This document shows, in pieces, positions 3,641-31,141 of a stretch of DNA of 64,000 nucleotides. A program made the translations under genes and the position numbers. Where the stretch lies: positions 1,178,001 to 1,242,000 of the forward strand of contig SPDP01000001.1 of NCBI GenBank assembly GCA_009360345.1, given 5' to 3'. This DNA comes from Alcaligenaceae bacterium SAGV5. GTDB lineage: Bacteria > Pseudomonadota > Gammaproteobacteria > Burkholderiales > Burkholderiaceae_B. The notes beneath the pieces are model-generated. The model worked only from the letters and a program-made list of their open reading frames with translations, was not told where the DNA came from and ran no database searches. The stretch's first letter is position 1. Every line of letters starts with the position of its first letter.

Positions 3641-5053
3641 ATGGCAACGCCCAAAGACGTCCTCAAGATGATTGCGGACAACGAGGTCAAGTTCGTTGAC
3701 TACCGTTTCACCGATACGCGTGGCAAGGAACAGCACGTGTCGGTGCCGTCCCACACCGTGGACGAAGACAAGTTCGAAACGGGCCACGCTTTCGACGGCT
3801 CCTCGATTGCCGGCTGGAAGGGTATCGAAGCTTCGGACATGCTGCTGATCCCCGAGCCCTCGACCGCCCGCATGGACCCGTTCCGCGAGGAATCGACCCT
3901 GATCATGACCTGCGACGTGGTCGAGCCTTCCGACATGAAGGGCTATGACCGCGATCCTCGTTCGCTGGCCAAGCGCGCCGAAGCCTATCTGAAGTCCTCG
4001 GGCCTGGGCGACACCGCCTACTTCGGTCCCGAGCCCGAGTTCTTCGTGTTCGACGGCGTGACCTGGAACGTCGACATGTCGGGCTGCTTCGTCAAGATCA
4101 AGTCCGAAGAAGCCTCGTGGTCCACCGGCATCGACTATGACGGCGGCAACCTGGCCCACCGTCCGTCGGTCAAGGGTGGCTATTTCCCCGTGCCTCCGAC
4201 CGATTCCTTCCAGGACCTGCGTTCAGAAATGTGCCTGTTGCTCGAGCAGCAGGGCGTCGAGGTCGAAGTGCACCACCACGAAGTGGCGGGCCCGGGCCAA
4301 CTGGAAATCGGCACCAAGTTCGGCACGCTGGTGCAGCGCGCCGACTGGAACCAGATCATGAAGTACACGATCTGGAACGTCGCCGCCGCCTACGGCAAGA
4401 CCGCCACCTTCATGCCCAAGCCCGTCGTCGGCGACAACGGCTCCGGCATGCACGTCCACCAGTCGATCTGGAAGGACGGCCAGAACCTGTTCGCGGGCAA
4501 CGGCTACGCCGGCCTGTCCGAGTTCGCGCTGTACTACATCGGCGGCATCATCAAGCACGCCCGCGCGCTGAACGCCATCACCAACCCCGGCACGAACTCG
4601 TACAAGCGCCTGGTCCCGCATTTCGAAGCTCCGGTCAAGCTGGCCTACTCGGCCCGCAACCGCTCGGCCTCGATCCGCATCCCTTACGTCGCCAACCCGA
4701 AGGGCCGCCGTATCGAGACGCGCTTCCCGGATCCCCTGGCCAACCCGTACCTGGCGTTCTCGGCCCTGATGATGGCCGGCCTGGACGGCGTGATGAACAA
4801 GATCCACCCCGGCGACCCGGCCGACAAGAACCTGTACGACCTGCCGCCCGAGGAAGACGCGAAGATCCCGACGGTGTGCTCGTCGCTCGACCAGGCCCTG
4901 GAAGCGCTCGACAAGGACCGCGAGTTCCTGACCCGCGGCGGCGTGTTCAGCAACGCCATGATCGACGCCTACATCACCCTGAAGATGGAAGAAGTGACGC
5001 GTTTCCGCGCCACCACCCATCCGATCGAGTTCGACATGTACTACGGCCTCTGA
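3641..5053 (+). CDS. glnA: Type I glutamine synthetase (GlnA)
   Basis: GlnA condenses glutamate and ammonia with ATP to glutamine and is the main nitrogen-assimilating enzyme, a cytoplasmic dodecamer. The 470-residue product has the family segments [49 protein letters not shown] and [10 protein letters not shown]. Tyr399 lies in [10 protein letters not shown], the adenylylation site recognised by GlnE, so covalent regulation is expected. The ATG at 3641 follows AGGAG at good spacing; the frame is open upstream to 3575, but that is not needed. The sigma-54 promoter and NtrC sites upstream, together with glnL-glnG downstream, show the usual nitrogen-limitation control loop. Confidence 0.97.
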
Positions 5054-5079
5054 TCCGGACAGGACCAGTCGTCAGCAAG

Positions 5080-5113
5080 AACGAAAACGGGGCGGGAACG
5101 CCCCGTTTTCGTT
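5080..5113 (+). terminator. Hairpin terminator after glnA
   Basis: A perfect 15-base-pair stem (AACGAAAACGGGGCG and its complement) closes on a GGAA tetraloop, 26 bases after the glnA stop. The U-tract is short because the A/T-rich bases are inside the stem. It probably ends most glnA transcripts ahead of glnL. Confidence 0.8.
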
Positions 5114-5237
5114 GGTGTGAGGCTCTCCCCCGCGCGCTGGCGCGGGTGGGCCGGCAACGCCGGAGCCACCGCATCCTGGGTCCGGGGCGAGTCCTTTCAT
5201 GTGTCGCGGGTGGCGCGTTGCGCCATGGAAAACTGAT

Positions 5238-25398: not shown

Positions 25399-25710
25399 TC
25401 AGGCAGGGTGAACGGCCTGGACGACAAGGCGCACGCCCAGTGCCTTGCACACTTTGGCTATGGTATCGAAACGCGGGCTGGCGTCAGCACGCAGGGCTTT
25501 GTAAAGGGATTCCCGGCCAATGCCGGCGGCCTCGGCGATTTGTGCCATGCCACGCGCGCGCGCCGCGACACCCAGCGCCTGTGCAAGTTCGCCGGCGTCG
25601 CCGTCCTCGATCACTTGCGTAAGATAGGCAGCGATGTCCTCGTCGTCGCGCAGGTAGCGAGCGGGGTCGAAGGTAGGCAGTTCGGAAACCTGAATCGTCT
25701 TCTTGCTCAT
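25399..25710 (-). CDS. Type II antitoxin, HigA/Xre-like addiction module antidote
   Basis: The 103-residue protein begins MSKKTIQVSELPTFDPARYL and ends with a helix-turn-helix region (MAQIAEAAGIGRESLYKAL, then PRFDTIAKVCKALGVRL), the pattern of the 'probable addiction module antidote' group. It should neutralise the toxin encoded immediately upstream and repress their common promoter. Its start overlaps the toxin stop by 4 bases. Toxin-first order is typical of higBA-like modules. Confidence 0.85.
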   Translation of the reverse strand: MSKKTIQVSELPTFDPARYLRDDEDIAAYLTQVIEDGDAGELAQALGVAARARGMAQIAEAAGIGRESLYKALRADASPRFDTIAKVCKALGVRLVVQAVHPA

Positions 25711-26021
25711 GACTGGTTTTCCTCGTTGTTTCTTAGGGCGCGCGCCAACTCCTTGGCGCGTTTGATGTCGCGGCTTTGCGTGGCCTTGGAGCCTCCGCCC
25801 AGCATGACGATCAGCACGTCGCCCTGCTCGATGTAGTACATGCGCCAGCCGGGGCCGAAGAACTCGCGCATTTCGTTCACCCCTTCGCCAACCGGCTCAA
25901 CGTCGCCCAGCAGGCCCCGCGCAGCTTTCTCAAGCCTGCGGATGAGGCGGGCGCGAGTGGCTGGGTCCTTCAGGTTGTCGAACCAGGCGTCGAACTCCGG
26001 CAGGGGCTTAATCGTGTACAT
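25707..26021 (-). CDS. Type II toxin, RelE/ParE superfamily (HigB-like killer protein)
   Basis: The 104-residue protein has the compact RelE/ParE layout: PLPEFDAWFDNLKDP, ARLIRRLEKAARG, EGVNEMREFFGPGWRMYYIE and VLIVMLGGGSKATQSRDIKRA, matching the 'probable addiction module killer protein' group. Members are mostly mRNA interferases acting at the ribosome. Together with the antitoxin it forms a small module between xthA and the azurin operon, and by eye it looks less GC-rich than its neighbours, which fits acquisition by transfer. The palindrome just upstream of its start is the likely operator. Confidence 0.87.
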   Translation of the reverse strand: MYTIKPLPEFDAWFDNLKDPATRARLIRRLEKAARGLLGDVEPVGEGVNEMREFFGPGWRMYYIEQGDVLIVMLGGGSKATQSRDIKRAKELARALRNNEENQS

Positions 26022-26563: not shown

Positions 26564-26574
26564 CAGGTTCTCCT

Positions 26575-27771
26575 TCAGGAATGTCGGTCGAAACGAGGAC
26601 GGATCAGCAGCGGGAAGAAGCGCCACAGGTACAGCGCGAACCCCAGGGTCCAGGCCGCCGCCGATGCGTGCAGGGCGCCCATGGTCCAGGGCGTGGGCAG
26701 CAGCGCGGCCAGGCGCAGCGCCGCCGCCGCGATCACCAGCGCGTAGGCGGCCACGATGCTACGGTCGGTGCGCAGCGGCCGCCCTAGGTGGCCCAGCGCC
26801 GTGCGCGTCACCATGCCGATGATCAGCACGGCAAAGCCCGCCGCGCCAATGACGTGCGCCGGCCAGGCCTGGCGCGCGATCCAGCCCGCCGCGTGCGCCG
26901 CGGCTACCAGCAAGCCCGTGCCCAGCGCGGCGTAGCCCACGTACAGGATCCACAGCAGTGGCACGCGCCGGACCGCCCAGGGGCGCCACGTCAGCAGTTG
27001 CCAGCAGGTCAGCGCGCCCGTGGCGGCAAGCGCCAGGCCCGCCCACGGCATCCAGCCGGCCAGCAGGAACGCGATCGCCAGCACGCCGGCGCCGAGTTGC
27101 CACTGGCCGCTGCGGGTGTGCATGGGGATGTCCAGGCCGGGCACGGCGCGCATCGCGAAGAAGGGGATCACGCGCCGCGCCACCAGCAGCGCGATCACCG
27201 CCATGCACAGCAGTCCGAGATTGAAGCGCGCCAGCAGCAGGGCGTAGTCGCCTTGCAGGACCGTATGGAGATAAAGGACGTTCGCGATGCCCAGGCCGAG
27301 GACGAGTACCGGCACTCCGTAGTTGCGCCGGCTGCGCGCCGGGTAGATGGACCGTCCCAGGGCCACGGCGGCACCGGCGAAGAACAGCGTCTCGCTGCAC
27401 GCGGCCAGCCAGAATCCGGTGCGGTCCGGCACCAGATAGCCGGCCCGTGCCAGCAGCCAGAGCATCGTCATCGCGCCCAGGGCCTTGCCCCGCAGCGGAT
27501 TGATGCCGGTCCAGTTGGCGCCGGCGGTGAATAGAAAGCCCACCGCGATGGTGGCGATGAAGCCCCATAGCATTTCATGGGCATGCCAGGCGACGCCGCC
27601 GAGCGGTCCGGTCAGCGCCCGCGGCGCATATACCCAGAGCAGGACGGAGACAGCGGCCCACAGGCAGCCCGCCAGGTACAGGGGCCGGAAACCCAGTTCC
27701 AGGAACGCGTGCCATTGTGGCGGCGGTGGGGCGGCGGGCACGGGTTCTTCGACTTTCAGCAGCATGGGCAT
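26575..27771 (-). CDS. nnrS: NnrS family membrane protein (nitric oxide stress response)
   Basis: The 398-residue protein has about twelve hydrophobic segments and the NnrS start [17 protein letters not shown], with the conserved [21 protein letters not shown] and [13 protein letters not shown] regions. NnrS proteins are heme- and copper-containing inner membrane proteins that protect against nitrosative stress by limiting formation of iron-nitrosyl complexes. Two features tie it to NO here: an NsrR-like operator 36 bases upstream of the ATG, and the azurin gene directly downstream in the same operon. Confidence 0.92.
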
Positions 27772-27806
27772 GGGCCGGCTCCGTGAGGACGTGCATGTCT
27801 GGCTTT

Positions 27807-27829
27807 AAGGTATATATTAAATGAATCTT
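27807..27829 (-). promoter_or_regulatory. NsrR-like operator upstream of nnrS-azurin
   Basis: The 23-base site reads AAGGTATAT at one end and AAATGAATCTT at the other and agrees with the NsrR consensus (AAGATGYATTT-N-AAATRCATCTT) at about 18 of 22 positions. NsrR is an NO-sensing iron-sulfur repressor, so loss of binding would turn on nnrS and azurin. No NsrR gene is in this window. Confidence 0.65.
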
Positions 27830-27869: not shown

Positions 27870-28904
27870 TCAACGGCGATCTGGTGAGCGAAGGCGGGCC
27901 GAGGAAGCGGGAACGGGGCTGGTCCACGTCCGGTGGTGCCAGTCGGAGGGCAGCAGGCCGAAGCGCAGCCGGAACAACTTGCTGAAGGCCGATTGGTCCG
28001 CGAAGCCGCAGCGCCACGACAGCGAGCCGACGTGCAGCCTGGGGCTGCGCTCGATCAAGGCCTTGGCGCGTTGCAGGCGGATTTCGCGCAGCATGCCCAT
28101 CACGGTTTCCCCCCGGGATGCGAAAGCCGCGTAAAGACGGGTGCGCGAGCAGCCGGCGCCGCGGGCGATCGCCGCGGCGTCCAGGTCGTGGCGGTGGGCT
28201 TCGCGCTCCATGAAGCGCAGCGCCGCGGCATGGCGGCCCGCGTTCAGGTCGTCTTCCAGATCGGACAGGCCCGCGCGCGATCCCTGGCGTCCGTAGTTGC
28301 GCAGCATCAGCAGCGCGAGCGAGCGCGTTCCTTCCAGGAGGCTGGCGTATTCCACGTCGTCCAGTTTCTGGGGTTGGCGTGCCAGCAGGGCCAGATGGTT
28401 CAACTGGCTGGCCAGGGCGGGGGCCAGCGTGCAGTGTTCCAGTGGAATGGGCGCGTTGCCCGGTTCGCGCCCCAGCGCCGCGCGGACCTCGCCGCGCGGC
28501 AGGGCCAGGAAGACCTCGCGCGATCCCTGGCTCCAGCGGTAGTTCCCGATGCGCCACGGATCGTACAGGCCCATGGTGCCCGGGCCGACGCGCTGGAGTT
28601 CGCCCGGGGCGGCGTCGCGCACCAGCTCGCCCGACTGGATCAGCGTGACCACCACCATGTCGGGCGCGTGGGCCAGGCGGCGGGAGGCGGCGCGCATTTC
28701 ATAGGCCGACGAGCGCATGGTGCCGAAGATGCAGGCACTGTTGCGCAGCGTGAGCAGTTCCGCATCCAGTTCGACCCCGGGCGGCGGGGGCAGCATTTCC
28801 ACCCACTGGTGCGCGCGCTCGCGCCAGGCATCGAAACGCAGCGCCGGTTCCACATCGTGGGAAGACAGATGCTCCGCTACGCAAGGGGGTGGGGAGGTCG
28901 GCAT
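27870..28904 (-). CDS. AraC family transcriptional regulator (AraC-binding-like N-terminus)
   Basis: The 344-residue protein has an N-terminal cupin-like AraC-binding domain (segments VVVTLIQSGELVRDA and GLYDPWRIGNYRW, as in FeaR-type regulators). A C-terminal AraC DNA-binding domain with two helix-turn-helices follows (DAAAIARGAGCSRTRLYAAF and LSWRCGFADQSAFSKLFR). I chose the ATG at 28904 (MPTSPPPCVAEHL); the frame is open to 28997, but that extension looks non-coding. It diverges from the large lipoprotein gene, so it may regulate that gene or itself; no effector can be inferred. Confidence 0.85.
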   Translation of the reverse strand: MPTSPPPCVAEHLSSHDVEPALRFDAWRERAHQWVEMLPPPPGVELDAELLTLRNSACIFGTMRSSAYEMRAASRRLAHAPDMVVVTLIQSGELVRDAAPGELQRVGPGTMGLYDPWRIGNYRWSQGSREVFLALPRGEVRAALGREPGNAPIPLEHCTLAPALASQLNHLALLARQPQKLDDVEYASLLEGTRSLALLMLRNYGRQGSRAGLSDLEDDLNAGRHAAALRFMEREAHRHDLDAAAIARGAGCSRTRLYAAFASRGETVMGMLREIRLQRAKALIERSPRLHVGSLSWRCGFADQSAFSKLFRLRFGLLPSDWHHRTWTSPVPASSARLRSPDRR

Positions 28905-29110
28905 GACACAAAATGATACACCCGTCGCGCGTTTTGCCACACCCGGGACGAATTCCCGGTATTCGGGACGCTTGACCCAAACATGCCTTACCCGCAAGAG
29001 AGGCCTTTCTCTAACATTTGTTCATCCTTTCCATGCGATTAACGCGGTGCCGTGAATATCCGGACGCCGGGTCGTCCGCGAGACATGGCCGATTTCTCAG
29101 GAGCGGCAGT

Positions 29111-31141
29111 ATGAAAACGAAAACAAGACGATTTCTCATGTCGGCGCTGGCATTGGCCTCGGGTGCGATGCTGGCCGGCTGCGGGGGGGACGGCGCCAAG
29201 AGCGAAGCCGGCTCCGGCGGCGCCTACTCGTCCCGCATCTATATGCTGGTGGCCGGGTCGGGGCAACTGTCGGCCGGCGCGGGTGGGGCGGTCCGGACCC
29301 TGACCTTGAAGAACGTCGAGCCCGACGTGCTGTGGTATGCCGGTGGCCAGGGCGTGGAGGTGGGAAAGTCCGCGGCCAAGGAGTACGCGGGCAACATCTG
29401 GCGGGACGCCTATGACGGTATCGATCCCAACGCGACGGTCCAGTTCCAGTTGTCGGGGGGAGGTGGGCTGGAAGGCGTGTATGTGGTGCTTTCCAGACCT
29501 GCCTACGATGAAAAGACCCGGACCATGACTTTCCAGGCGCAGTTGCAGAATGACACCCTGGACCAGGATGTCGATGCCGCCCTGGATTTCGACAATGTCA
29601 CCGTCAGGGTGCTCAACAATCTGGTGGATGACAAAGAGGTGGCGGAATACACGCAATACGCCTCGAAGGCGGCCTTGCAGCCCACGGCCACGGCCGGCCA
29701 GTACAAGGTGGTGCTGAGCCAGGCGGGCGAGGACATGTTCCTGGTGGACAATGCGCCGGGCACGTATTCCGAGGCCCGGCCGGTTTCCTATTTCCTGCCG
29801 CAGTGGTCCTACGCCTACGGCGAGACGGCGCCGGCAGCCACCTTGTTCGGCACCACGGCCAAGGGGGATCCCAAGCTGTACGCCATGACGCTGTCCAATC
29901 CCGCCTATGACGCCGATACCGACGAGATCAGCTACACGGCGACGCTGCGGGGTTCGAACGCGGGCGCGCCGGAAGCCCTGGGCGATGCCGTGCTGAGCGT
30001 CGCCGCGGGCCGCTTCACGCGCTTTCCCATCCCCGGCAAGGGCACCGCCTACCAGGCCTTCGGGCAAGGCTACAACCCGTCCACGGCGAACACCAGCTAC
30101 ATCTATTTCGGCAGCGACATCGCCCGCAAGCAGGCCGGATCGTTGTGGGGCAAGCAGTCCTATCTGTCGCAAAGCTGCGGAACCGACTGCCGCAACGACC
30201 TGAAGACGATCAAGGACATGGGCATCAACCTGATCCGGCTGTACGACTGGGATACCCGCAACGACCACAGCCAGTTCCTGGACTATGCGAACAGCCTGAA
30301 CATCAAGGTCGTCGTGCCGCTCAGCAACTGGATCTCGACGCAGGGCGATCCGCTCTGGAACACGGCGCTGGCCGCGTATTTCTCGAACCGGAACTTCGGC
30401 AACAAGGCCGGGACCGACTGGCATCCCGCGATCGCCGGGGTGATCATTTCCAACGAGCTGGATGCCGAAGGCTATCCCGGCAACTACAACACGGCCATCG
30501 GCCTGGTCGCGCGCTTCATCGAAGAGGCCGACAAGCGCAAGTTCAGCAAGAGTGTGCCGGTGGGCATGCCGATCACCTTCGTGCCGCGCGGCGAGCCCTA
30601 TCTGTCCGGCAAGAACATGCCGGGCTGGAACCAGTTCAACCGCCTGCTGACCGACTCGCGGACCGCGAAATACAAGGACCGCCTCATGCTGGCCCCGCAG
30701 ACCTACAACGACGAGACCTATCTGCTCAAGAACGCGGAAAGCACGGGCCAGGGCTGGATTCCCGCCACCTACAAGCAGTTCGGCGTTCCCATCCTGTTCA
30801 CGGAAATCGGCTATAGCCGGGCGAAACCCGACTACACCCCGAACTACGTCAACCGGCAGTTGAAAGGTGTGCTGGACTACCAGAAGAGCAATCCGGGCCA
30901 GATACTCGGCATCGCCCACTTCCAGTTCGACGACAAGGTCTGGAAGCAGACCGAGCACGATACCGACACCGAAGGGGCGTTCGGGGCGTTCCACCACGGC
31001 GACATCGTCAAGCAGATCCAGACCGTGAAGGCCGACTACGACTTCTACGATGACCAGGCCAAGACCAACTATGGCGTGCTGACCATCGATCAACTGGTCA
31101 AGACCAGCCTGCATGACGCGGTGGTCGACGCCTACAAGTAG
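29111..31141 (+). CDS. Large lipoprotein with C-terminal TIM-barrel glycoside hydrolase-like domain
   Basis: The 676-residue product has a lipoprotein signal (LASGAMLAGC, lipid-modified Cys24). Residues 25 to about 300 form an unrecognised beta-rich region. From about residue 306 a TIM-barrel-like domain follows: DLKTIKDMGINLIRLYDWD, then Glu449 in VIISNELDAEGYPG and Glu565 in PILFTEIGYSRAKPDY. Paired glutamates after strands 4 and 7 are the acid/base and nucleophile of clan GH-A enzymes. The IRLYDWD segment recalls beta-1,3-glucanases and glucanosyltransferases of the GH17/GH72 kind. It may act on a surface or extracellular glucan. I chose the ATG at 29111 because it gives a proper signal sequence. 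Confidence 0.7.
   Translation: MKTKTRRFLMSALALASGAMLAGCGGDGAKSEAGSGGAYSSRIYMLVAGSGQLSAGAGGAVRTLTLKNVEPDVLWYAGGQGVEVGKSAAKEYAGNIWRDAYDGIDPNATVQFQLSGGGGLEGVYVVLSRPAYDEKTRTMTFQAQLQNDTLDQDVDAALDFDNVTVRVLNNLVDDKEVAEYTQYASKAALQPTATAGQYKVVLSQAGEDMFLVDNAPGTYSEARPVSYFLPQWSYAYGETAPAATLFGTTAKGDPKLYAMTLSNPAYDADTDEISYTATLRGSNAGAPEALGDAVLSVAAGRFTRFPIPGKGTAYQAFGQGYNPSTANTSYIYFGSDIARKQAGSLWGKQSYLSQSCGTDCRNDLKTIKDMGINLIRLYDWDTRNDHSQFLDYANSLNIKVVVPLSNWISTQGDPLWNTALAAYFSNRNFGNKAGTDWHPAIAGVIISNELDAEGYPGNYNTAIGLVARFIEEADKRKFSKSVPVGMPITFVPRGEPYLSGKNMPGWNQFNRLLTDSRTAKYKDRLMLAPQTYNDETYLLKNAESTGQGWIPATYKQFGVPILFTEIGYSRAKPDYTPNYVNRQLKGVLDYQKSNPGQILGIAHFQFDDKVWKQTEHDTDTEGAFGAFHHGDIVKQIQTVKADYDFYDDQAKTNYGVLTIDQLVKTSLHDAVVDAYK

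Follow-up and report, generated by a model that had tools for sequence, protein, structure and literature searches.

A predicted NsrR operator ahead of an nnrS-azurin operon in a Pigmentiphaga-like betaproteobacterium

We analysed a window, that is, a whole stretch of DNA of 64,000 nucleotides (G000:C8:1178001-1242000) from a 6.01-Mb genome in 16 contigs. A 23-base site within it is, with high probability, an NsrR operator that controls two genes as one operon, nnrS and the gene for azurin, a small blue copper protein; nitric oxide (NO) would lift the repression, and NnrS and azurin would be produced jointly. The sensing of NO by NsrR through an iron-sulphur cluster and the protection of the cell from NO damage by NnrS are established knowledge. 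NnrS is a conserved member of the NO regulon with a poorly understood biochemistry, and the physiological role of azurin is debated. The control of nnrS by NsrR is already known in kind, and the new part is the place of azurin, whose usual partner enzymes were not found here.

The NnrS of the window shares 89-92% identity with its counterparts in Pigmentiphaga kullae, Pigmentiphaga sp. NML030171 and MAG 67-32, and 81% with that of P. humi, so the host can be described as a Pigmentiphaga-like betaproteobacterium. By estimate, 7.6% of the assembly is contamination; nnrS, however, lies on a contig of 2.4 Mb and nsrR on one of 0.75 Mb, and each shows about 90% identity to the Pigmentiphaga version.

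The operator and the genes around it

The features discussed below are listed by descending window coordinate:

27870-28997, minus strand: gene for a regulator of the AraC type, whose best NCBIfam match, FeaR, stays under the cut-off
27807-27829, no strand assigned: predicted NsrR operator, a 23-base imperfect palindrome with 7 of 11 pairs symmetric
27772-27806, minus strand: leader of 35 bases, from the operator to the nnrS start
26575-27771, minus strand: nnrS, 398 amino acids, membrane protein of NO stress (PF05940, E 1.7e-89)
26564-26574, minus strand: gap of 11 bases between nnrS and azurin; a Shine-Dalgarno-like AAGGAG overlaps the nnrS stop codon
26108-26563, minus strand: azurin, 151 amino acids with a signal-peptide-like start (TIGR02695)
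25399-26021, minus strand: toxin-antitoxin pair of the HI1419/HI1420 type, just downstream of azurin

The operator reads AAGGTATATATTAAATGAATCTT on the plus strand and AAGATTCATTTAATATATACCTT toward nnrS. An earlier note on this DNA had described it as an NsrR-like site matching the consensus at about 18 of 22 positions and lying 36 bases ahead of nnrS. Against the consensus AAGATGYATTTNAAATRCATCTT we also count 18 of 22, but the spacer to the nnrS ATG measures 35 bases. A search of the window with the strict consensus, allowing up to three mismatches, returned no match, because the operator itself has four.

The site was scored with a matrix from other genera, for which the best consensus match ahead of globin or nnrS was taken from 65 nnrS loci outside Pigmentiphaga. 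An accepted site was present in 56 of these loci, giving 51 distinct training sites from which the window site was kept out; because each was the place near its gene that agrees best with the consensus, these sites lean toward it. The nine loci left out reach 9-13 of 22, and at least two of them are cut by a contig end. Where the operator precedes globin, the region ahead of nnrS reaches at most 14 of 22. All distinct training sites carry AG at positions 2-3 and CT at positions 21-22, and one differs at an outermost base.

On this matrix the operator scores 38.0 bits, which equals the training median of 38.0, and the next place in the window reaches 2.8. The maximum over 100 simulated 64-kb first-order Markov sequences was 8.7 bits, a null that is too kind given the heavier tail of real genomes, in which the best pattern hits away from the known operons, over 11 genomes of the genus, reach 35.9 bits for a P. 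humi site, 29.4 bits for an AT run and 23.1 bits. Across six genomes, 19 of 23 operator columns are invariant, whereas the adjoining upstream stretch has 21 of 40 and the leader 17 of 35. Compared with the other five, P. humi keeps 20-21 of the 23 operator bases, and 25-27 of 40 and 19-22 of 35 in the two flanks. In view of the matrix score and the column conservation we reject a chance AT-rich palindrome, and the site can be regarded as an ordinary, well-supported NsrR operator to which NsrR is predicted to bind.

Both gene assignments are well above their thresholds (301 bits versus a cut-off of 28 for NnrS with PF05940, and 201 versus 105 for azurin with TIGR02695). The best solved match of the azurin is azurin-I (1rkr, E 1.2e-61), and the protein has His46, Cys112, His117, Met121, Cys3 and Cys26 in mature numbering, among which are the type-1 copper ligands; these residues and the profile match mark it as an azurin.

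The gap of 11 bases claimed earlier between the two genes was confirmed by measurement. It is also 11 bases in L008, L009 and L010, and 10 in L047 of P. humi, and there too the Shine-Dalgarno sequence overlaps the stop codon of nnrS; these four loci are four of the six linked genomes treated below under G names, and each is counted once. A simple scan of the gap gave neither a terminator-like nor a promoter-like match. Within nnrS it gave two terminator-like matches that overlap each other (27539-27561), the region holding three in all versus 1.2 expected by chance. As the stop codon overlaps the Shine-Dalgarno sequence and azurin starts 11 bases on, nnrS and azurin are very probably on one transcript, and by sequence criteria (one strand, a minimal gap, and neither terminator nor promoter in it) they form an operon. 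A promoter of azurin's own was rejected in view of the 11-base gap, although one may lie inside nnrS.

The neighbours on either side differ in how they relate to this pair. Upstream, the AraC-type gene runs in the same direction, ends 40 bases before the operator with no terminator-like match between, and could therefore add expression by read-through; all five relatives compared have this gene as well, though in one of them only part of it was seen. Beyond it, at 29018-31141 on the plus strand, there is an open frame of 707 amino acids from the first start codon, with a lipoprotein-like start as judged by eye. Downstream, the toxin-antitoxin pair was rejected as an operon member, since it occurs in only two of the six sequences compared (the window and L008, some flanks being short) and has its own promoter-like match.

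The regulator and its sites in the genus

The earlier note had proposed looking for an NsrR gene and further sites in the genome; the gene is there, with its own operator, and the absence that would have spoken against the proposal was not seen. Five proteins of the Rrf2 family exceed the Pfam cut-off in the genome, three of which were typed with NCBIfam, one of these typings being uninformative. The NsrR candidate (G000:C10:247603-248043; PF02082, 119 bits) scores 122 bits on NF008240, which is below the curated cut-off of 182 and the best of eight families, with the RirA model just behind at 117.8 bits. Among solved structures it matches NsrR 5n07 best (E 8.7e-19), and its three cluster cysteines line up with the three cysteines of that chain. 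The gene overlaps a bacterial globin gene (PF01152), an NO-related neighbour, and an operator of 33.8 bits lies 14 bases ahead of the globin. We therefore name the protein NsrR by genomic context and solved match, despite its score on NF008240.

For the whole-genome and genus scans we used patterns written to fit the window site, whose zero mismatches are thus by construction. Within two mismatches, the window's genome has two operators only, ahead of nnrS-azurin and of globin-nsrR; three further matches appear at three mismatches, and the reversed control gives three in all. The loose scan of the genus, with up to three mismatches, returned 72 forward hits versus 47 in the reversed control, and hits at three mismatches consequently carry little meaning. 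At two mismatches or fewer there are 17 hits, counted without a control at that level, of which 14 lie at the two operons and three elsewhere: G001:C1:305443 (22.3 bits), G004:C1:2734310 (22.7 bits) and G003:C37:36213 (35.9 bits). An AT-rich match of 29.4 bits at G000:C11:10389, present also in G007 and G009, precedes a gene that seems to us to resemble tricarboxylate-uptake binding proteins, and is taken as chance.

The 35.9-bit hit belongs to P. humi (L185:4214-4236, equal to G003:C37:36213-36235) and would be a third operator of the NsrR type, 36 bases ahead of a membrane-protein-like frame of 146 amino acids. In the Caenimonas koreensis locus L017, a frame that by eye looks alike (4728-5174) comes after nsrR; the P. 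humi frame may therefore be a further NsrR target, and the site is perhaps a real one.

The genus comparison covers 11 genomes, including that of the window, with nsrR in eight (E 1e-15), nnrS in seven and azurin in nine. The globin gene adjoins nsrR, with a site of 28.1-42.8 bits ahead, in all eight NsrR-positive genomes. The nnrS and azurin genes are adjacent in six of the 11, the window included; all six carry the operator (34.1-43.7 bits) and are nsrR-positive, although five of them are close relatives and not independent. The proposal that site, nnrS and azurin make up one NO-response operon thus agrees with what the genus has kept together. Two genomes with nsrR (G008 and G010) lack both nnrS and azurin. 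In the three with no NsrR match at E 1e-15 (G001, G005 and G006), azurin is unlinked and 64-67% identical to that of the window, and no site above 1.3 bits was found in the 15 kb around it; G001 also has an nnrS, unlinked and without a site.

These data bear on whether the site could serve another Rrf2 regulator, IscR or an iron regulator like RirA, instead of the NO-sensing NsrR. The five Rrf2 proteins and the nearly equal RirA and NsrR scores of the candidate leave some room for this, but we consider it very improbable: a like site stands ahead of globin-nsrR here and of globin-nnrS-nsrR in other genera, the three NsrR-negative genomes, scanned in the same way, have no listed hit above 22.6 bits versus at least 28.1 at the operons, and the closest solved structure to the candidate is NsrR itself.

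Comparison with other genera

Of the 69 nnrS loci that were fetched, the 65 outside Pigmentiphaga comprise 38 with the order globin-nnrS-nsrR, eight with nnrS-nsrR, six with globin-nnrS and 13 with neither neighbour (some cut by a contig end); nsrR directly follows nnrS in 46. Pigmentiphaga shares the three genes and the type of operator with the globin-nnrS-nsrR operon of other Burkholderiales, but distributes them over two operons, globin-nsrR and nnrS-azurin, each with an operator. Relative to those genera, one unit has become two, and nnrS has gained azurin as a neighbour.

The wider literature places this arrangement within a known regulon. In Rodionov et al. 2005 (PMC1274295), nnrS is a well-conserved predicted member of the NsrR regulon that in some cases shares an operon with nsrR or hmp, and a cyanoglobin operon is predicted as the sole NsrR target in Legionella. 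The beta- and gammaproteobacterial regulon of that account resembles ours in having an operator ahead of nnrS and a nsrR clustered with a flavohaemoglobin gene; it differs in that here azurin is in the operon, nnrS is separated from nsrR, and the genome has two strong operators. The paper also names another copper protein under NsrR, the NirK of Nitrosomonas europaea, but that one is a nitrite reductase, and no NirK over cut-off was found here. PMC6769254 lists NnrS and azurin as separate copper proteins. Among the matches listed from the open-access literature, no title or abstract opening describes an NsrR-nnrS-azurin operon; as far as that search shows, azurin as a member of an NsrR operon is new.

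The link to azurin appears confined to one lineage, since a tblastn search at E 1e-4 placed nnrS, nsrR or globin near none of 63 azurin loci from outside Pigmentiphaga, within flanks of up to 1.5-2.5 kb. These loci were the best matches, together with one to three from each further genus that gave a match. Except for L162, none of them has a site above 17.3 bits. Six further, wider azurin loci from other families likewise have no nnrS nearby. In L162, a 27.1-bit NsrR-like site (2939-2961) lies between two tandem azurin genes, 180 bases ahead of azurin, in a relative (G178) that is AT-rich, with 43% GC.

In four of the 69 nnrS loci (L012, L015, L017 and L040, from Hydrogenophaga, Caenimonas and two MAGs), azurin is found on the other strand, 1.4-3.0 kb past nnrS, and scans of L012, L015 and L017 over their whole length gave no second site. 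Quick trees of azurin, NnrS and globin-NsrR, built without bootstrap, group the six linked azurins together (95) and put the azurins of these four loci among the closest to them, with a modest SH-aLRT of 82 and one long-branch row. Pigmentiphaga NnrS groups with that of Comamonadaceae (98). We do not make a firm claim of horizontal origin, as the globin-NsrR tree also fits a position of Pigmentiphaga beside other Alcaligenaceae.

The linkage, seen in one genus only, and the three members of that genus with an unlinked azurin speak for a rival reading, in which the operator controls nnrS and azurin is a mere bystander downstream, with no part in NO defence. We regard this as the less likely reading, though one with appreciable weight. 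Against it, P. humi and the others share the 10-11-base gap and the overlapping Shine-Dalgarno sequence although their azurins are only 75% identical, and in the eight NsrR-positive genomes nnrS and azurin are either both present (six) or both absent (two).

A role for azurin in the response to NO

The view of azurin as an electron carrier of denitrification, which the earlier note gave as its usual role, finds little to rest on in this genome. The sole TIGR02376 (NirK) match is below cut-off and is part of a copper-resistance oxidase of the CopA type; no PF02239 match (NirS, cytochrome cd1) and no PF03150 match (cytochrome c peroxidase) was found. The three haem-copper oxidases (PF00115) type as aa3, bo3 and cbb3, so that this typing revealed no NO reductase. 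With neither a nitrite reductase nor, by PF00115 typing, an NO reductase found in the genome, the pair does not qualify as a denitrification electron-transfer operon.

The operon could nevertheless be a leftover of denitrification, with azurin serving a nitrite or NO reductase that was lost or escaped detection. Azurin-I-type proteins are known from denitrifiers, and among solved proteins the azurin studied here is closest to one of that type; the genome is moreover a draft, in 16 contigs and estimated to be 98.7% complete and 7.6% contaminated. We hold this to be improbable, given the sub-threshold TIGR02376 match within a CopA-type oxidase, the lack of a PF02239 match and the types of the PF00115 proteins.

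PMC6277709 concludes that azurin is not the donor to the nitrite reductase AniA of N. gonorrhoeae, cites the same for N. meningitidis and P. aeruginosa, and states that Laz donates to cytochrome c peroxidase. Our azurin would resemble the Neisseria Laz described there in being tied to stress resistance and not to nitrite reduction, but differs in that a PF03150 peroxidase match is missing from the genome. Azurin in this organism is probably a stress-response redox protein; since NirK, NirS, the peroxidase and an NO reductase were not found, its partner is most likely an oxidase or NnrS.

For the NsrR-controlled operon that we favour, the following course may be proposed. NsrR with an intact iron-sulphur cluster would sit on the operator and repress transcription. 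NO would damage the cluster and release NsrR, whereupon both NnrS and azurin would be produced. Because globin-nsrR, the regulon's other operon, has an operator of this kind too and its globin probably removes NO, the system would reset itself as repression returns. NnrS would protect against NO damage, and azurin, as a periplasmic copper redox carrier, most likely feeds the cbb3 or aa3 oxidase, or NnrS itself, and would keep electrons moving while NO interferes with haem cytochromes.

The occurrence of azurin and nnrS under one predicted NO switch, in a genome for which these searches gave neither a nitrite reductase nor an NO reductase nor a cytochrome c peroxidase, makes the role of azurin testable. 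More tentatively, and in our estimate rather unlikely, NnrS and azurin may form a dedicated NO-defence pair in which azurin gives electrons or copper to the periplasmic side of NnrS. If that were true, the pair would give NnrS, a haem-copper membrane protein, a physiological redox partner.
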